Shown here: in pieces, positions 24,147 through 57,709 of the stretch
How the letters are laid out: each line of letters begins with the position of its first letter
Position numbering within the stretch: the stretch's first letter is position 1
IMG/VR virus record: IMGVR_UViG_3300005664_000003
Location: 1-57,755 of that record
DNA from: a virus
Length of the DNA stretch: 57,755 nucleotides
Strand: one strand, 5' to 3'
Position numbers and translations under genes: made by a program
Notes under the pieces: model-generated
Database searches by the model: none
What the model saw: only the letters and a program-made list of their open reading frames with translations
Told to the model about the DNA's origin: nothing

Positions 24147-24502
24147 TTTAGTAATTCGTAAGTTAAGATTAACTGGACGTAATGTAAGATTTGATCAAAT
24201 CCTATAACTACAAAACCATTATGGTAGTCTCCTTCATCAAAACACTGTTTAACAATGTGACTAGTAATAAGATCAATAGCAAAGTGTGTAACGAATGTAA
24301 TTACTGCAAAGACTACACCTGTCCCGAAATGTTCAAAGTGAATGGTAGAGAAGAGCAACCAAACTAAAGAGTAGGTTGCTACATGTTTTAGTAATGCAAA
24401 CATGTCGTCTGATTTATTAGACGCTTGCCAATGAGTCTGTAGAGCAAAATCTGCTAACCAGTGGATTAACCCAATGGCTAGCAGTAATTTGTAGCTTATC
24501 AT
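24143..24502 (-). CDS. DUF3307-type membrane protein
   Basis: The 119-residue protein has four hydrophobic segments. The motif HWLADFALQTHW (about 14-25) and a later HFAIDLITSH are typical of the DUF3307 family of small phage and bacterial membrane proteins. Conserved His and Asp in membrane segments hint at metal or substrate binding, but the function is not known. It lies between the NAMPT-like and phosphatase genes with 4-base overlaps on both sides. Confidence 0.7.
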   Translation of the reverse strand: MISYKLLLAIGLIHWLADFALQTHWQASNKSDDMFALLKHVATYSLVWLLFSTIHFEHFGTGVVFAVITFVTHFAIDLITSHIVKQCFDEGDYHNGFVVIGFDQILHYVQLILTYELLK

Positions 24503-26214
24503 ACTTTCAATCTTTCTCTGATTTCTTCCAGGGTAGTAGTTCTTACTAACTCACCGTTTTTGAAAACAGTTTCAAGTAAGCCTCCGTTTTCTTGTTCCCA
24601 AGTACATTGATCATTTACTTTCAACTCATCAGTTCCATCAAACTTCTGCATTGCTGGATGAGTATCCCAATAATTGTTAAATACTTGTAAAAGACCTTTC
24701 TTAGACCTCTTAGTACCATCATCAGTAATTGGATCTTTGTAGATTTCTCTAGTTTCAACAAGATCTTCTCTACCAGTCAGACTGTAAGTTGCTTTGATAA
24801 GATCAAGATGTTTAGGGTTAGAACGATCAAAAGCTATTTCAACTTCTTCTCCTCCAGCCTTCTTTACTTTAACAGTAGGTACATTTAATACTTCACCGTA
24901 GGTAGCTTTCATCGCAAAGCCGAAAGTATCACGAGTATTATACTGGTAAGTGTAACTACCAATACCAAGAACCACATTAGTCGAAGCGAAACCTTTAGCT
25001 TTGAGTCTCTCACAAATCTGAGCGGCACGTTCCAGAGTGATAGAATCGCCATAGATAGCACCAATATGAGGATCAAGTTCTTTATATCCATATTCATTTA
25101 CTTTACCTCCAAACAAATCCCAGAGAAGTTCAATTACACCTTTTCTTTCTGGTTCAGGTACTTCCTTAAGTTGTCCTCCACGCTTGTAGTAATATTTCCC
25201 ATCCGTATTTTGATAATACTCTACTCCACATAGAATATCTACAGGGTCACCAGAATCTGGACGAATAACAAGTTTACCATCTCTTGAAAGGATTTGATCC
25301 TTAATTTGAGGAAGGTGAACTGTCAGGACTTCCCAAAGATTCCATGTATCAGAAACGACACTAAGAATACCAGTAGGATATAGATCCAGAAGCCTTTTGA
25401 AGGTGTCCACCTCAGCTTCTTTAGTACCCATACACATAACACTGTGCTCAGTAGCAGGTACAGAAGCACCGATAAGCCCTGTAGCTCCGTAAGATTCTTC
25501 AAGCTGATATATAGCTGGAATAGTATCCGTTCCGGTAAACGATGTAAGATGACCCATGCCAGAAAGAATAGCGGATTCAATACTAGACATACCACGCATA
25601 GAAAAGTCATGACCTTGCCACTGAACGAATTCTGAAGATCCTGTAGTTTCCAATGCGTATTTTGAAAGGACTTTTTTGTATTCATAAGCTATTGTTGCTG
25701 AAGTAATTGGTTGCCACATCATAGTTGAAATTAAGGTTTCCAAGTAATTTGTTAACCAGGCAAAGTCAGGATGTGTATTTTTAATTGTAAAGCAGGGAAC
25801 TCCAATTGGAACTAAAGTACCTTCTGGAACAGCTTTAATTTCAATAGGTAAATAACCTAAATCCCACAAAGCTTCAATGTGCTTAGTATCTACAGGAATG
25901 TGCTTCTGATACTCTTTAATAACAGAGGACTTGTAAATTAACTTGATAGTGGTTAATGTTTTACTGTCAACTCCTTGAAGACCTCCAAGTCTTTCAACTT
26001 CATTCTCTATGTCCTGTTTGTGAAAGAAGAGCTTGTCAAATTCTTTAATCAAATACTCAAGACAGAAATGCTGTAATCCAAAGAATACAACCTTGTCTAT
26101 TCCAGGAATTCTACTCTTTCTTGGAGTGAAGTTGGAATAGATCATTGTAGTACCTTCTGGTAGCATACGATGATGTTCCGTTTTATAATAATCAACTAAT
26201 AGTAGTGGATTCAT
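24499..26214 (-). CDS. NAMPT-like nicotinamide transferase (Namat-type candidate)
   Basis: The 571-residue protein follows nicotinamide phosphoribosyltransferase throughout. Landmarks are the N-terminal DYYKTEHHRMLPEGT, YLETLIS (about 157-163), the catalytic histidine in SVPATEHSVM (H257) and RPDSGDP (318-324), which contacts the phosphoribosyl substrate. Length is somewhat above human NAMPT (491). In phages, a NAMPT-like enzyme next to a Prs-like enzyme forms NARP1, in which nicotinamide is joined directly to ADP-ribose pyrophosphate to rebuild NAD+ destroyed by host defences. The Prs-like gene is two short genes upstream and no NMN adenylyltransferase is visible, which favours NARP1. Confidence 0.9.
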   Translation of the reverse strand: MNPLLLVDYYKTEHHRMLPEGTTMIYSNFTPRKSRIPGIDKVVFFGLQHFCLEYLIKEFDKLFFHKQDIENEVERLGGLQGVDSKTLTTIKLIYKSSVIKEYQKHIPVDTKHIEALWDLGYLPIEIKAVPEGTLVPIGVPCFTIKNTHPDFAWLTNYLETLISTMMWQPITSATIAYEYKKVLSKYALETTGSSEFVQWQGHDFSMRGMSSIESAILSGMGHLTSFTGTDTIPAIYQLEESYGATGLIGASVPATEHSVMCMGTKEAEVDTFKRLLDLYPTGILSVVSDTWNLWEVLTVHLPQIKDQILSRDGKLVIRPDSGDPVDILCGVEYYQNTDGKYYYKRGGQLKEVPEPERKGVIELLWDLFGGKVNEYGYKELDPHIGAIYGDSITLERAAQICERLKAKGFASTNVVLGIGSYTYQYNTRDTFGFAMKATYGEVLNVPTVKVKKAGGEEVEIAFDRSNPKHLDLIKATYSLTGREDLVETREIYKDPITDDGTKRSKKGLLQVFNNYWDTHPAMQKFDGTDELKVNDQCTWEQENGGLLETVFKNGELVRTTTLEEIRERLKV

Positions 26215-26402: not shown

Positions 26403-26475
26403 AAAAGATTTTAGCTATTAATCTGTTAAACCAGTTATTATCTACTACCTGATAGACTTTTTTACTTTCGTTCAT
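26377..26475 (-). CDS. Micropeptide of 32 residues coupled to the Prs-like gene
   Basis: ATG at 26475 overlaps the Prs-like stop in an ATGA arrangement, and the frame ends at 26377 inside the next gene. The peptide (NESKKVYQVVDNNWFNRL near its start) is amphipathic, with aromatic residues. The 4-base coupling is the only reason to call it. Function unknown. Confidence 0.4.
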   Translation of the reverse strand: MNESKKVYQVVDNNWFNRLIAKIFYGVDFESN

Positions 26476-27245
26476 ATTATTTTAAATTGAGTTACAAATG
26501 GATGATCTACATCCTTTACTGAATTAGTACAGAAGATGTGTGATAAACCACAATCTTCTAATACATTAATACCCTTGGAAAAATATCCATGAGTAGCATA
26601 GAGGTACACACGCTTTGCTCCTTGTTCAAGAAGCTTTTTAGCAAGAACGATGAATGTGTACCCACCATCGCAAATGTCGTCTACAATAAGACAATTCTTG
26701 TCTTTTACATCTCCTGTAAACTGAAGATCTATTTTTCCTTCGTTATCTCTGTGCTTAACTCCCGCAACTACAGGAAGTTCAAGATTAGTACCTAGTTCAA
26801 ATACTTTCTTGTACGCTCCGGCATCGGGGGAAACAAGTACTATCTCTTCTTTTGTTAATTTAGCTATAGACTCAACGGCTTGAGTTACAAAGTGTTCAAC
26901 ACCTTCTTTGTAAGACTTATTAATTAAAGCAAGTGTTACGTCTGAATGAGGATCCAGGATATTAACAGTTGTAAAATTACAGCTATTAATTACTTCAGCA
27001 ATTAACTTTAAGTCAAAGGATTGGTGAGGATGAAACCTACGATCACTTCTTTGACCAAACATACAAGGTATTGCTACATGAATGATTGGGTCTGCATAAG
27101 CTGTGTGAATAGCATCAGCTAATGCTCTTAAGAAGAACAAGTCTTCATAAGAGTTTATTCTTTCTCTGATCTCCAACGGACCTTCTATATCAGTTATTTT
27201 AACTGAGATCTGTCCATCAGGATACTTTATTCTTTCGTATTTCAT
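26472..27245 (-). CDS. Prs-like pyrophosphokinase (Adps-type candidate of NARP1)
   Basis: From ATG at 27245 the protein has 257 residues. It carries the N-terminal KYPDGQ, the FGQRSDRRFHPHQ region equivalent to the ATP/metal region of PRPP synthetase, SPDAGAYKK, and the PRPP loop IVDDICDGGYT. It is shorter than bacterial Prs (about 310). The frame stays open upstream to about 27335 with a non-ATG start, but that stretch overlaps a strong RNA fold and is probably not coding. In NARP1 the Prs-like Adps makes ADP-ribose pyrophosphate from ADP-ribose. Pairing with the downstream NAMPT-like gene supports that role over plain PRPP synthesis. Confidence 0.85.
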   Translation of the reverse strand: MKYERIKYPDGQISVKITDIEGPLEIRERINSYEDLFFLRALADAIHTAYADPIIHVAIPCMFGQRSDRRFHPHQSFDLKLIAEVINSCNFTTVNILDPHSDVTLALINKSYKEGVEHFVTQAVESIAKLTKEEIVLVSPDAGAYKKVFELGTNLELPVVAGVKHRDNEGKIDLQFTGDVKDKNCLIVDDICDGGYTFIVLAKKLLEQGAKRVYLYATHGYFSKGINVLEDCGLSHIFCTNSVKDVDHPFVTQFKII

Positions 27246-27254
27246 AATAAAAGT

Positions 27255-27366
27255 AAGCCATCGCAAGATCGTCAATCTTGCATCTTTACGCTCGTCTTCG
27301 TAGGCTCTATTTTTACATACAGGAGAAGCTATCAAAAACCCGTATAGACTTTGAGCTAAATGGCTT
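27255..27366 (-). ncRNA. Structured leader RNA before the NAD+ genes
   Basis: Bases 27360-27366 and 27255-27261 form a perfect 7-bp closing helix. Inside are a hairpin at 27339-27345 / 27317-27323 (7 bp, one G-U) and one at 27276-27281 / 27263-27268 (6 bp, 7-base loop) that sits one base from the closing helix. The layout recalls a tRNA acceptor plus T arm, but the T-loop consensus is missing. The element ends 10 bases before the Prs-like ATG. It could be a riboswitch-like leader or a processed tRNA-like RNA. Confidence 0.5.
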
Positions 27367-49761: not shown

Positions 49762-49871
49762 GATGTGCAGGATATTCCACACCAAGTACCTCCTGTTTGG
49801 GTGTTGGATTCGAACCAACTCGTTTTGCTTTATGTACAGAAAATTTGAATTAACATTGCTGTTCTCACATC
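49762..49871 (-). ncRNA. tRNA-like RNA unit 3 of the array (degenerate)
   Basis: Closing stem AGATGTG with CACATCT (7 bp), then AGAACAGCA. Next come a perfect T arm (GTTGG, loop TTCGAAT, CCAAC) and a 6-bp acceptor-like helix with one bulged C that closes an 11-base loop. No proper D arm can be drawn. CTGTACA upstream of the T arm could hold a GTA anticodon. Being last in the array and imperfect, it may be decaying or a mimic rather than a tRNA. Confidence 0.45.
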
Positions 49872-49877
49872 TTATCA

Positions 49878-50002
49878 GTTTACTTTTGTTTGCATAGAGC
49901 TCTACCACTGAGCTATCTCCCCGTAAGTGGGGAGAGCCGGATTCGAACCAGCGACCTCTTCGTTATGATCGAAATTGCGTTTTTAATTTGCTGTAAGTAA
50001 AC
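49878..50002 (-). tRNA. tRNA-like RNA unit 2: circularly permuted, CAT anticodon
   Basis: Order along the minus strand: outer stem AGTTTACTT, ACAGCA, anticodon arm with loop ATCATAA (anticodon CAT) closed by TTTCG/CGAAG, variable AGGTC, T arm GCTGG-TTCGAAT-CCGGC, acceptor strand TCTCCCC, then A and CTTAC. The other acceptor strand GGGGAGA follows, then TA, D arm GCTC-AGTGGTA-GAGC and outer stem AAGTAAACT. The 3' part thus precedes the 5' part, and both acceptor strands pair perfectly. Joining GAGC-T-CT to TCGATCATAA would complete a 5-bp anticodon stem. Either a permuted tRNA-Met/Ile2 gene or a tRNA mimic. Confidence 0.6.
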
Positions 50003-50007
50003 TTATC

Positions 50008-50123
50008 AGAGTTCTTTTTTATGCGTGTCCTAACCACTAGACGACCGACCAGTTACGGCCAGGCAAGATTCGAACCTACGTTCCGCCCCCCATAAGGAAT
50101 TTTTAAAATGCTGTTTGAACTCT
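50008..50123 (-). tRNA. tRNA-like RNA unit 1: circularly permuted
   Basis: Outer stem AGAGTTC with GAACTCT, then AAACAGCA. Next: T arm GTAGG-TTCGAAT-CTTGC, acceptor strand CTGGCCG, 4-base link TAAC, acceptor strand TGGTCGG (7 pairs, three of them G-T), TC, and D arm GTCT-AGTGGTTA-GGAC of the Glu/Gln/Asp style. Joining CGC from the D-arm side to CC-TTATGGG-GGGCG would give a perfect 5-bp anticodon stem. The resulting anticodon (ATG) is odd, so the join point or identity is uncertain. Confidence 0.55.
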
Positions 50124-50127
50124 TATC

Positions 50128-50185
50128 AGGTTAGTTCTTTTCTCAAAACCAAAATTTGAATTTTAAGAATTGCTGTTACTAACCT
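50128..50185 (-). ncRNA. Array unit 0: hairpin without tRNA-like body
   Basis: Stem AGGTTAGT with ACTAACCT (8 bp) encloses AACAGCA and an A/T-rich loop of about 40 bases resembling the spacers of the other units, but no T or D arm. It is followed by the same GATA spacer. It shows the repeat frame of the array without an insert, either an ancestral empty unit or a leader. Confidence 0.55.
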
Positions 50186-50291
50186 TATAGTAAGAGAGGA
50201 GATCCGTCTAACCTCCTCCTTACCGACCTTAATCACTAACTCTACCTATGGGCAAGATAGAATACCTTTATATATGCAAGTAATAAAAGCC
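50186..50291 (-). other. Gap between the Ro60-like stop and the array, with a long hairpin
   Basis: No gene. A hairpin with arms GTAAGGAGGAG and CTCCTC-T-CTTAC surrounds an 11-base loop (about 50187-50222) and is followed by ATA-AG, the same junction that separates array units. It may end the Ro60-like mRNA or be the first, divergent unit of the array. Confidence 0.4.
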
Positions 50292-52013
50292 TTACATTTC
50301 AATACGAGCCATAACTTCCTGATCCATAGCTGCTTCAAACAGCTCTACATCAGTTTTAGGCTCTTTCTTTTGACCTTCTACACCAGTTAAGAATGCTATG
50401 ATTGAACCATCATAACCTCCAAAGTAGTATACATTCTCAGTTTCTCCGTACGTTTCAAACTTCTCACCACTACCTTTTCCGTAATAGCTATTCTGTAAAT
50501 TCCACAGAACAATCTTGAAGTTATTGACATAAGTTTCAGAGAATCCTGCTTTAGTTAAAGTAGCCCTGGCTGTTTCAACATTAGTTTTACCTAATGAAGT
50601 AGGATTAAACTCTGAGTCTGATATACAAAGAATACCAGTAGGAAACTCAGATTCAGCTACTCCCTGTCTTTTTATTTGGCAGAAAAGTTCTATAACTGAC
50701 TGAAAATTAGTACTACCTACAATACCAGAATGATCATTCATCCACTTTTCTGTAGCTGTTTTACCTTTCCAGGTGTGCATCTTTGCAGTTGTATTAAATT
50801 CAATCCAACTGTTTGCAAATGCTCCTGCTGGTAACATTTCAGAGAAGAATAAAGCCAGTGCCTTACCTATATTGTAACAAGATAGTTTTGTTCCTGGTGC
50901 AAGAGAAGACATGGAGAGTGAAGTATCACGTACTACAATCAGTGAAGTGTCTTTCTTTGCATTCTTTTTAGCTGTTTCTACCAGTCCGTCAAACTGCTTG
51001 TTGATAGTATGAATTTGATACTTCTTTAAAGTAGTAAGATCAAGATTAGGATGTTGATATTTACCAACAGTTGAGTACTTCTCAAATAGCTCATGTACAT
51101 AACCTGTGAACTTAGCTACTGGTTTAGAAGCAATCCAGGTTTCATATTGCTTTTCGAGCTTATTGTTTGCAATAAACTTCCCCGAAACTAGCAGGGAGAG
51201 AGCTCTTCCATGAACAGTATCGAAATTAATTTCCAGCATTTTACCTCTCGAAATTAGCTGTTGCCATACATGAGCATTACCTGAAGCTTTTAACTGACGA
51301 TATTTCTTGTATGAAGCACTTTCATTCTCTTTCTTCGAACCGAATAAAAGAGAACAAATCCATTTAGCAATAATATTATCAGCTTGTGAAGCTAAAGTTG
51401 TACATTTCTTGTTTGACTTAATAGTAGGCAAATACTTCTTAACTAAGTTATTAGTCTTTGGGTTTTCAAGCCCAGCAAGCAACAGCTTACCAAACTCATC
51501 CCAATGAAGTTGTCTTCCTTCCCAACCATTGTACTGTAAATCGTAGGAAAGCAATTGAATAACATCTTTCCAGGAACCAACGGAAATAAACAACTCTATA
51601 TTTTTCCAGAACACGGTTGGGTGATTTACAGCAATCCATAATGATCGTGTAATCCCCTCATGTCTTAGACCAGAACCTCTTTGTACAGTAGTTGTCTTCT
51701 CTCCTGTGAAGAAGGATACAACACGGGTAATCATTCTCAGAAATAGGGTGAATGCTACTGTCATCTTTGGGTTAATAGCCCATAGAGTTGACATATCTGA
51801 AGCTATATCATTATACCCCCTTGGTTGTTTGTACAATCCTGTTTTTGAGAATTGATCCACAAAGTCATTACCTGTTGTAGTATATTTTAAAGCACCATTA
51901 CCTGATTTGGTTTGGGCTGATTTCTTTAAACCTTGTTGAACAAATCCATTTGTGGTTGCAACAGATGCTTGCTCTTCTTTTGTGAAGAGTGTTGATTGTT
52001 TTTTGCTGAACAT
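50292..52013 (-). CDS. Ro60/TROVE-like protein with vWA domain
   Basis: The 573-residue protein has a helical-repeat N-terminal part (about 60-340) with RGSGLRHEGITRSLWIAVNHP and SVGSWKDVIQLL, features of TROVE/DUF2828 proteins. A C-terminal vWA domain has the metal site DTSLS (363-367), then an SDSEF segment. Ro60 proteins bind Y RNAs and help RNA quality control. Bacterial Y RNAs contain tRNA-like modules, and here a tRNA-like array follows 100 bases downstream. The family call is from motifs I can see; DUF2828 is the main alternative name. Confidence 0.65.
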   Translation of the reverse strand: MFSKKQSTLFTKEEQASVATTNGFVQQGLKKSAQTKSGNGALKYTTTGNDFVDQFSKTGLYKQPRGYNDIASDMSTLWAINPKMTVAFTLFLRMITRVVSFFTGEKTTTVQRGSGLRHEGITRSLWIAVNHPTVFWKNIELFISVGSWKDVIQLLSYDLQYNGWEGRQLHWDEFGKLLLAGLENPKTNNLVKKYLPTIKSNKKCTTLASQADNIIAKWICSLLFGSKKENESASYKKYRQLKASGNAHVWQQLISRGKMLEINFDTVHGRALSLLVSGKFIANNKLEKQYETWIASKPVAKFTGYVHELFEKYSTVGKYQHPNLDLTTLKKYQIHTINKQFDGLVETAKKNAKKDTSLIVVRDTSLSMSSLAPGTKLSCYNIGKALALFFSEMLPAGAFANSWIEFNTTAKMHTWKGKTATEKWMNDHSGIVGSTNFQSVIELFCQIKRQGVAESEFPTGILCISDSEFNPTSLGKTNVETARATLTKAGFSETYVNNFKIVLWNLQNSYYGKGSGEKFETYGETENVYYFGGYDGSIIAFLTGVEGQKKEPKTDVELFEAAMDQEVMARIEM

Positions 52014-52228
52014 CTTTTTCGTTTTAGTTTATGAGGAGGAAATTCATTAGTATACAGTAATGCTCCATTATCACTAACTGTATACACTGTACCTTTGTTA
52101 GAAGAAGCTTGTAATAGTTTCTTCTGAAAATAAGCAAATGCTTTTGGTACATTAATGTGTATTGCTTGTTGTTTGACAAAGACCTTCCTGGTCCTATCAT
52201 AAGTCCATTTATGAACGTCTTTTGTCAT
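51926..52228 (-). CDS. Basic hypothetical protein, 100 residues
   Basis: The N-terminal 65 residues look like a real small domain, and the Lys/Gln/Ser-rich tail runs 88 bases into the Ro60-like gene in another frame. The basic tail could bind RNA. Because of the long overlap the true end may reflect a frame change. Function unknown. Confidence 0.45.
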   Translation of the reverse strand: MTKDVHKWTYDRTRKVFVKQQAIHINVPKAFAYFQKKLLQASSNKGTVYTVSDNGALLYTNEFPPHKLKRKRCSAKNNQHSSQKKSKHLLQPQMDLFNKV

Positions 52229-56907: not shown

Positions 56908-57027
56908 GAGGCAAGGTAAGATTCGAACTTACGTATATATGCAACTAGGTGTACACTCTGTTACCTTAACATTGTATTTCCTGCACAGAGATCTGTGTGT
57001 GATAATACCCGCTTTGCTACATGCCTC
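56908..57027 (-). tRNA. Non-canonical tRNA-like gene with extra bases
   Basis: The T arm is perfect (GTAAG-TTCGAAT-CTTAC, 56916-56932), and the adjacent acceptor pairs AGGCATG with CTTGCCT, with one T-T mismatch. The 5' part TA-GCAAAGCGGGTA resembles a tRNA-Cys D arm. The span is 120 bases. A CACAG-ATCT-CTGTG hairpin and GTTA-AGG-TAAC lie where the anticodon arm should be, and no clear anticodon can be placed. It is probably a tRNA with an insertion or a tRNA mimic. Confidence 0.5.
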
Positions 57028-57048
57028 ATGTAAATTTAATATTAGCTT

Positions 57049-57163: not shown

Positions 57164-57709
57164 TTATAACTCCTTTGGGTTAATTTGAATAATTTGTTTA
57201 CCAACTGATTGTGCATATTTTACACAATTAGCTGTACCACCAGATGAACCATCCCAAACTGCAATTAATAGATCACAGTTGTTTACCATCCAGATATTTC
57301 GCTGTTGCATTTTCTGGGTAGAATATGAGTTACCGCTAGGTGAAAGACAAGTTTTAAGATTGTCCAAATCTTTGTGCAATGAAACTCTATGGTCTACCAA
57401 AAACACATCATGGGATTGTGTCAGGATATTGAAATATTGATCTACTGACTTTTTAGGCCATCGTGTGTACTGTCCTTTACAAGGAATAGCAGCTATGAAC
57501 GGTATTCTTAAACTGATAGCTATTTGAGCAAACAGAGTATCAATGCCTAATGCCATCCCTGTGATTAGCGTAAGATCAGTTTCACTCATGAAATCATACT
57601 TAGCTAGTAAGTTCTCAATTTGATACTTAATTAGCTGAAGTAATGGACTAGTAAGATCATAGTCATTACCAAGTTTATGTGGTCTATGACCTGTTATTGC
57701 TATTTTCAT
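57164..57709 (-). CDS. SLOG-type (DUF1273-like) nucleotide-binding protein
   Basis: The 181-residue Rossmann-like protein starts MKIAITGHRPHKLG, then has LITGMALGID (the glycine-rich strand-turn) and WDGSSGGTANCV, the pattern of YspA/DUF1273 SLOG proteins. SLOG domains bind nucleotides such as NAD-derived molecules, and some act in defence or counter-defence. Given the NARP1-like genes in the same window, a link to NAD+ or ADP-ribose sensing is possible but only inferred. Confidence 0.7.
   Translation of the reverse strand: MKIAITGHRPHKLGNDYDLTSPLLQLIKYQIENLLAKYDFMSETDLTLITGMALGIDTLFAQIAISLRIPFIAAIPCKGQYTRWPKKSVDQYFNILTQSHDVFLVDHRVSLHKDLDNLKTCLSPSGNSYSTQKMQQRNIWMVNNCDLLIAVWDGSSGGTANCVKYAQSVGKQIIQINPKEL

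Follow-up and report, generated by a model that had tools for sequence, protein, structure and literature searches.

What does a gene for a Ro60-like protein do in a virus, directly upstream of a row of units that resemble parts of transfer RNAs (tRNAs)? The question is raised by a virus record of 57,755 bases (IMGVR_UViG_3300005664_000003), analysed at its full length and hereafter called the window. In it, four RNA units (U1–U4) lie in tandem on the same strand as the gene, 107 bases 3' of its stop. An earlier note on this DNA had placed protein and RNAs on one strand about 100 bases apart, as was measured here, and had likened them to Ro60 and to the bacterial RNA YrlA. On the evidence of sequence comparisons and of a predicted structure, we conclude that the locus probably encodes a Ro-type ribonucleoprotein with tRNA-mimic RNAs.

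The gene product is predicted to have a Ro60 fold

The gene product matched PHROG_850 ('RNA-binding protein') with an E-value of 4.6e-29. Its match to DUF2828 (PF11443) was weak (E 7e-4, 19 bits versus a cut-off of 29); four relatives adjoining similar RNAs passed this cut-off. The Pfam TROVE model (PF05731) did not match the gene product at E <= 1, and neither the single sequence nor a profile found a solved structure, Ro60 included. An AlphaFold2 model, computed from an alignment of 13 relatives, had a predicted local distance difference test (pLDDT) value of 86.5 and a predicted template modelling (pTM) score of 0.87. When this model was compared with known structures, ranks 1–5 in Foldseek were Ro60 chains (E 2.4e-6 to 2.6e-4). 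The best match in VIA-align was the Ro autoantigen 1yvr (Z 18.5, root-mean-square deviation 4.2, 423 residues, model residues 30–553). The first nine rows of VIA-align were all Ro60, Rsr or TROVE chains (Z 13.9–18.5), while the next row was a vWA domain alone (Z 10.7). Since the top matches of the model in both comparisons were all Ro, we assign the protein to the Ro60 fold. Both the helical-repeat ring and the vWA domain of Ro60 are present in the predicted structure, which agrees with the identity proposed in the earlier note. Residues D363, S365, S367, T435 and D466 are invariant across 14 sequences; by the definition of the motif (DxSxS ... T ... D), we take them to be the metal ion-dependent adhesion site (MIDAS). 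As modelled, the gene product is a Ro60-fold protein, yet it is no TROVE member by the Pfam test. The gene fits no defence model in PADLOC.

The RNA units share a handle

The RNA units share an element that we call the handle. It is composed of (U)AUAAG, a unit-specific stem of 6–8 bp, the strand CAGCA(A), a stretch rich in A, the second stem strand with C as its last base, and either UGAUAA or UGAUUU; it begins with AAG and closes with CUG. When units were taken between consecutive linkers with no condition on a stem, the outer six positions were all paired within the unit in 36/41 units. The 5' and 3' strands of different units paired at all six positions in 1.6% of 1640 combinations, and in 0/62 combinations within the same array. 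Among 31 aligned short units, the seven handle pairs were formed in 95.3% of cells, and the covariation score was 0.907 versus 0.214 in shuffles; these 31 units had been picked for having a stem, so the 41-unit test is the fairer one. A1, A2, T54 and G55 are invariant in the aligned units, C53 is nearly invariant and G3 is present in 28/31, where one of the unit searches had required AA and TG, and CAGCA was a search condition too. The first base is G in 73/87 units.

In the window, the pattern TGATAAG-N(5-9)-ACAGCA occurs three times, always in the array; in 100 dinucleotide shuffles it turned up 0.01 times on average and at most once. The 6-base linker between the units was found again in related arrays. 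We also used R1, a model trained only on units from IMG/VR contigs and from Leptolyngbya phage Lbo-JY46. It scored 54 bits on U1, which was in the training set, 22.8 bits on U2, and 36.9 bits (E 5.4e-6) on U3, which was outside the training set; R1 does not match U4.

The gene and the array occur together in other phages

The pairing of gene and array put forward in the earlier note recurs in other phages. The protein search found four IMG/VR relatives and phage Lbo-JY46 (46% identical). The array lies behind the gene in loci L001, L002, L003 and L005; in L004 it is not directly behind the gene, and matches to the RNA family RF01414 (see below) lie approximately 3.5–6.7 kb upstream in the record. 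Three DNA-pattern scans yielded 160 loci, 15 of which were marked by the criterion of a stem plus a chain of linkers. For 13 of these 15 chained-array loci the gene is in the same record (12 in the stretch, L073 in the record). Among the other 145 pattern loci, the gene was found in two, L095 and L111, and both have units. In the window, as in all 15 loci for which the order was computed, gene and array share a strand. Their order is not fixed: L135 and L141 have the array first.

The R1 model matched 11/12 named phages with the gene family (10/11 chosen phages and KVP40) versus 0/5 phages without it (T4, SPO1, phiKZ, rv5, K); the named phages were hand-picked from 166 records with a match, and KVP40 and the controls were also chosen by hand. 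In 100 of approximately 142 gene-less pattern loci (862,512 bases), there was no R1 match at E <= 0.1. In KP2025, EC6, A511, EfV12-phi1, PJN02 and BUCT194, no more than about 0.5 kb separates the matches from the gene; the distance is about 7 kb in KVP40 and about 10 kb in S13. EC6, a Felixounavirus, has four units along with the gene. In Listeria phage A511, the region approximately 1 kb before the Ro-like gene (L200 2198–2749) also has a match to ROOL RNA (87.5 bits; cut-off 99.1).

A handle-like hairpin spans the start codon of the gene

A handle-like sequence is also found over the start codon of the gene itself. In the window copy, AAG begins at 52016, CAGCAA stands behind the first strand, and TG follows GCATC at 51962. 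R1 also matches the gene start in 5/20 loci searched (L030, L111, L131, L133, L148). In 8/16 close relatives, the base before the ATG and the next five bases pair perfectly with a hexamer 45–72 bases on, which is followed by TG. Codon shuffling produced 6-bp start hairpins with TG in a mean of 0.19 and a maximum of 3 genes in 500 runs, and such a hairpin was found at 5/589 internal ATGs. AAG precedes the ATG in 10/16 genes, all of which have at least five pairs plus TG, and none of the other six do; the 16 genes are related to one another. Because the coding sequence in this region is poorly conserved as protein, we read the start-codon hairpin as an operator. This suggests autogenous control, and therefore that the protein binds the handle. 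The hairpin is thus the best evidence, if indirect, that the sequence offers for recognition between protein and RNA.

The cargo of the units resembles pieces of tRNA

The cargo differs from unit to unit (Table 1). The earlier note had described the units as having a closed acceptor and an outer stem at the former anticodon side, as in YrlA. A closed acceptor is present in U2 and U3 (seven paired positions in each), while U4 fails the same test and U1 is not a tRNA; the permuted order of T-arm, closed acceptor and D-arm in the outer stem is found in U2 and U3 and is missing in U1 and U4. In U3, the acceptor is GGGGAGA/TCTCCCC with the linker ACTTAC. The topology of the outer stem stands, except that in U3 the anticodon stem-loop is kept and not replaced: TTTCG-ATCATAA-CGAAG, with the anticodon loop ATCATAA, sits 5 bases ahead of the T-stem. 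A break inside the anticodon loop, as first assumed, was given up for U3, where the break lies between the D-arm and the anticodon arm. The anticodon TCG, which ARAGORN read in the doubled sequence of U3, was not adopted, since the 3' half of the unit contains an entire stem-loop with CAT.

The YrlA model (RF02553) matched U3 with 37.2 bits (E 1.4e-6, model positions 24–84), in the order T-arm, closed acceptor, D-arm, and U2 with 15.6 bits (E 2.4). It also matches four units in other loci, and EfV12-phi1 and KP2025 at full length with up to 45.2 bits. The gathering score of 69 was reached nowhere, the best values being 37.2 in the window and 45.2 elsewhere. The YrlA likeness can be measured in U3, though far under the cut-off; many units have an anticodon stem-loop only.

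Table 1 Features of the locus in the window
Feature	Position	Strand	Description
Ro60-fold protein gene (predicted)	50292..52013	-	ATG open reading frame, 573 amino acids; PHROG_850; helical ring and vWA domain
Possible autoregulatory hairpin, handle-like	51962..52016	-	AAG + AUGUU...CAGCAAA...GCAUC + UG, spans start codon
U1	50129..50184	-	Handle and lone anticodon stem-loop-like hairpin TCAAA-TTTTGGT-TTTGA; anticodon UUG, Gln-like
Linker TGATAA (U1/U2)	50123..50128	-	
U2	50009..50122	-	Handle and permuted tRNA-like module; closed acceptor TGGTCGG/CTGGCCG, linker TAAC
Linker TGATAA (U2/U3)	50003..50008	-	
U3	49878..50002	-	Handle and permuted tRNA-like module; anticodon stem-loop, T-arm, closed acceptor, D-arm
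Linker TGATAA (U3/U4)	49872..49877	-	
U4	49762..49871	-	Handle (GATGTG/CACATC, then TGATTTT) and T-arm module; no recognised closed acceptor

Long and short units were counted separately. Among 48 long units, a T-arm is present in 41 and a closed acceptor in 24. The acceptor linkers of these 24 are 1–22 bases long in 22 units, 6 or fewer in 9, and 71 and 126 bases in the remaining two. In the 49 short units (L107 and one L162 unit, judged to be chance, were excluded), hairpins with a 7-base loop numbered 31 versus 15.6 expected (z 5.3), whereas other loop sizes from 3 to 11 were not clearly in excess (largest z 2.2). Canonical loops with U33 and R37 were found in 18/49 short units; over 300 shuffles their number averaged 3.4 and never exceeded 10. 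By the code table, the loops include CUUUUAA (Lys), CUUGUAA and CUCGUAA (Thr), CUUCUAA (Arg), CUGCUAA (Ser), CUGCAAA (Cys) and UUAGGGG (Pro). An automatic anticodon search also picked T-loops (TTCGAAT etc., 19/48 rows), and those rows were not used.

ARAGORN found 0 tRNA genes in the window, also with introns allowed; on doubled units it gave permuted readings in 11/70 units tested (L006, L010, L154 and L166 excluded). A plain tRNA cluster is ruled out by the absence of tRNAs in this search together with the conserved handle. A self-cleaving ribozyme or intron, an idea taken from the linker sequence, had no supporting Rfam family match. In Vibrio phage BUCT194 (L207 2765–3005), the acceptor linker of one unit, 126 bases long and starting with CCA, contains a further tRNA, which is in normal order and is interrupted in its turn. 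A hairpin, GTAAGGAGGAG...CTCCTCTCTTAC, lies between the gene and U1 (window 50190–50250, minus strand), and hairpins between gene and array were also seen by eye in L002 and L005. At window 56913–57031 (minus strand) there is a normal-order tRNA-like sequence, GAGGCA...TGCCTC, with the T-arm GTAAGTTCGAATCTTAC and a long insert, in which ARAGORN with introns allowed found no tRNA.

The handle resembles Dictyostelium Class I RNA

In the window, the model of Dictyostelium Class I RNA (RF01414) matched U3 with 21.0 bits (E 0.23) and U1 with 17.4 bits (E 1.9). Six related loci (59,633 bases) contained 9 matches at E <= 10, all within arrays, the best with 39.3 bits (E 5.6e-4); seven loci of named phages (59,158 bases) contained five, each beside the gene. 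At E <= 1, RF01414 matched 19/19 records, but also 7/14 unrelated control genomes. At E <= 0.0022, it matched 17/19 records; the two that fell short were the window (0.047) and G011 (0.525). The gathering score of 41.5 was reached by 0/19 records (best 39.7).

According to passages in Kjellin et al. 2021 (PMC7919456), Class I RNAs begin with AAG and end in CUGU; they have a 6-bp stem in which base changes compensate one another, and a motif of 11 nt. The phage units have the AAG start and the CUG end, and their 6-bp stem is kept by compensatory changes. They share with Class I RNA a stem that varies in sequence and a UUACAGCAA-type motif; short phage units are about 50–65 bases long with a variable loop, and matches to the full-length model reach 39.7 bits. 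The 11-nt motif of Class I RNA has T3, C6, C9, A10 and A11 as its near-invariant bases; of these, C6, C9 and A10 are present in 87/87 phage units (CAGCA having been searched for), A11 in 85/87 and T3 in 36/87; T3 is present in 12/21 hand-cut units of named phages. In contrast to Class I RNA, the phage units are tandem and joined by UGAUAA, some hold whole tRNA modules, and position 3 (U) of the motif is loose. The amoebal partner, Rnp1A, is a protein with an RNA-recognition motif, unlike the phage Ro60-fold protein. The Dictyostelium upstream sequence element (DUSE), a promoter approximately 60 nt upstream of Class I RNA, is an amoebal element and is not expected in a phage. In the same passages (PMC7919456) no Class I RNA is reported outside Dictyostelia; the searches they describe covered eukaryotes and Myxococcus, not phages. 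Our literature searches on Class I RNA with phage and on DUF2828 found no paper on a phage Class I link. As far as its sequence goes, the handle fits the Class I RNA model rather than YrlA, a likeness that may reflect common descent or convergence alike.

A Ro-type particle that may display tRNA pieces

Ro60 carries Y RNAs on its outer surface and takes loose 3' ends inside its ring. We propose that the locus encodes a phage counterpart in which the Ro60-fold protein would recognise the common handle by four features: AAG at the start, a short stem of variable sequence, the unpaired strand (U)NACAGCAA, and CUG at the end. The array would supply several RNAs in one transcript, with the UGAUAA linkers as putative cut sites. 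Each RNA would show a tRNA piece, namely an anticodon stem-loop, a stem-loop with a T-arm, or a permuted tRNA with joined acceptor ends, that could not be charged because it has no free acceptor. The handle would hold the protein while the cargo stays exposed and accessible to any factor that recognises anticodon arms, and the protein would probably limit its own translation through the start-codon hairpin. The particle would most likely serve as bait or competitive inhibitor for tRNA-recognising host enzymes, above all the anticodon nucleases of anti-phage defence. The predicted fold, the structure of the array, its association with the gene, the excess of anticodon loops and the start-codon hairpin come from the data; from them we infer the transcription, processing, binding and purpose of the array RNAs. 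The role as a decoy for anticodon nucleases is a tentative suggestion, somewhat short of an even chance, while the explanation as a whole (Ro-type ribonucleoprotein, display of tRNA pieces, self-limited translation and nuclease decoy) appears to us reasonably probable. It has a precedent: in a passage of Hughes et al. 2020 (PMC7790460), the tRNA-like domain of YrlA, itself uncut, is proposed to be a competitive inhibitor of an anticodon nuclease. The phage arrays look like this idea elaborated with many anticodons.

Several observations weigh against this explanation. The same source (PMC7790460) has YrlA uncut by a tRNA nuclease in Salmonella, which fits an inhibitor and not a cleaved bait. 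By the search used, 18/49 short units have no hairpin of 5 bp with a 7-base loop, and several loops have A or G at the U33 position (e.g., AATTGGT, AGGTTAA), so some cargoes are not true anticodon loops. The minimum-energy fold of the window's start region lacks the outer hairpin. L154 and L166, which are one sequence, have array-like chains and no gene; we judged these chains to be chance. Acinetobacter phage ME3 has the gene and no R1 match, and so does a Lachnospiraceae contig (L208), for whose genome 150/7207 candidates were scored. In the jumbo phages GAP32, XbC2 and Serratia BF, the R1 matches lie approximately 200 kb from the gene, and those of GAP32 fall in a region with annotated tRNAs.

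Other explanations of the locus were weighed on the same data. The Ro ring might be a platform for RNA repair or quality control that collects nicked tRNAs, with the array RNAs as gates or tethers, phage ligases cooperating, and the tRNA pieces anchoring repair enzymes. In GAP32 the homologue directly follows an RNA ligase gene, in XbC2 and Serratia BF such a gene stands two genes ahead of it, and a tRNA splicing ligase lies downstream of the homologue in A511. According to passages in two papers, bacterial Rsr and Y RNA genes lie within an RNA repair operon (PMC7790460), and TROVE proteins are linked to jumbo-phage RNA repair (PMC7824862). The ligases and the jumbo-phage passage fit the Ro-type particle, but they suit a repair platform too. 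No ligase is annotated in the examined stretches of EC6, EfV12-phi1 and BUCT194, and none was found among 17 window proteins scanned with Pfam; we hold a repair platform to be rather unlikely, with some chance of being right. We give a slightly smaller chance to a Y-RNA-like tether, in which the cargo leads the Ro protein to some host enzyme that binds tRNA (a nuclease, e.g., PNPase, or a modification enzyme) and the particle is a degradation machine, not a decoy. The YrlA model matches would suit it, as would the joint work of Rsr and Y RNA with PNPase in Deinococcus described in a passage of PMC7790460; an excess of anticodon loops with varied anticodons is unneeded for tethering one enzyme.

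That the units are permuted tRNA genes, spliced and opened to working tRNAs, seems improbable. The T-arm, D-arm and acceptor are intact in U2 and U3, some related units have longer linkers (10–22 bases, and the two of 71 and 126), and one of them encodes CCA (BUCT194). Against this, the short units lack a tRNA body, linkers of 1–6 bases in 9/24 closed units would leave little room for end processing, and the window search with ARAGORN came back empty even with introns. It is very improbable that gene and array are unrelated neighbours, a degenerate tRNA cluster standing by chance beside a vWA/helical-repeat gene: ordinary tRNA clusters do lie nearby in many phages with the gene, but the compensating handle stems, the co-occurrence with its negative controls, and the start-codon hairpin speak against it.

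Other genes of the window

A nicotinamide/nicotinate phosphoribosyltransferase gene (24499–26214, minus strand; Pfam 9.8e-37) stands beside a PRPP (phosphoribosyl pyrophosphate)-synthetase-like gene (26472–27335, minus strand; 3e-10). The two are possibly a salvage pair for nicotinamide adenine dinucleotide with a counter-defence role. In KP2025, a gene of the same phosphoribosyltransferase type lies near its DUF2828 gene. A SLOG-family protein is encoded at 57164–57709 (minus strand; YpsA 1e-11, PADLOC ShosA 2e-9).

Comparison with known systems

Red algae and archaea have permuted tRNA genes in which the 3' half stands ahead of the 5' half, as in the array units. The units differ from these genes in their acceptor loops, which are often very short, and in the additional conserved handle. 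The array also resembles the phage tRNAs that counter tRNA-cutting defence (Septu, PARIS) in being phage-encoded tRNA sequence with a plausible counter-defence role; those are working tRNAs, whereas the array pieces would be non-chargeable.

Bacteroides phage crAss001 has a comparable locus around Gp96, a TROVE protein (Pfam TROVE 5.5e-13) with an SPFH gene nearby. The 961 bases after this TROVE gene contain five TTAC[AT][GT]CAA motifs, while the other 5,040 bases contain none on the same strand. The unannotated 0.9 kb at 95965–96869 (L229 1466–2370, minus strand) hold a stem-loop that resembles Arg-UCU (ATAAT-CTTCTAA-ATTAT), as well as a tRNA into which 82 bases are inserted; this is probably a sister array. 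Unlike the phage arrays described here, it has the motif UUACUUCAA/UUACAUCAA, a normal-order tRNA with an insert and no R1 match. A profile comparison with Gp96 gave a probability of only 34.6, in the vWA part.

The phage Ro-RNA pair as such is already known: Chen et al. reportedly described Y RNAs near Ro60 in phages in 2014. The literature searched yielded nothing on the arrays, their anticodon cargo, a link to Class I RNA or a hairpin at the start codon. With these features, a widespread phage gene family (E. coli, Listeria, Enterococcus and Vibrio phages) gains a predicted RNA partner, recognition rule and role. Three puzzles would be joined: the tRNA-like domain of bacterial Ro/Y RNAs, the ligands of amoebal Class I RNA, and the survival of phages under anticodon nucleases. 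A bolder conjecture, which we think may be true but would not rely on, is that amoebal Class I RNAs and the phage RNAs form one class, ligands of Ro60-fold proteins with a variable display site, in which phages would show anticodon loops as bait for tRNA-cutting immunity and the protein would sense its own level through the start-codon handle.

Like Ro60/Rsr with YrlA (RF02553), the phage locus combines a predicted Ro60 fold with a neighbouring RNA of permuted T-arm, closed acceptor and D-arm. It differs in a protein without a TROVE match, in tandem arrays of variants and in the CAGCAA handle, and its units keep anticodon stem-loops or show them alone, with at most 45.2 of the 69 bits. Judged by sequence, the closest kin of the locus would be Ro60/YrlA and, unexpectedly, the Class I RNAs.
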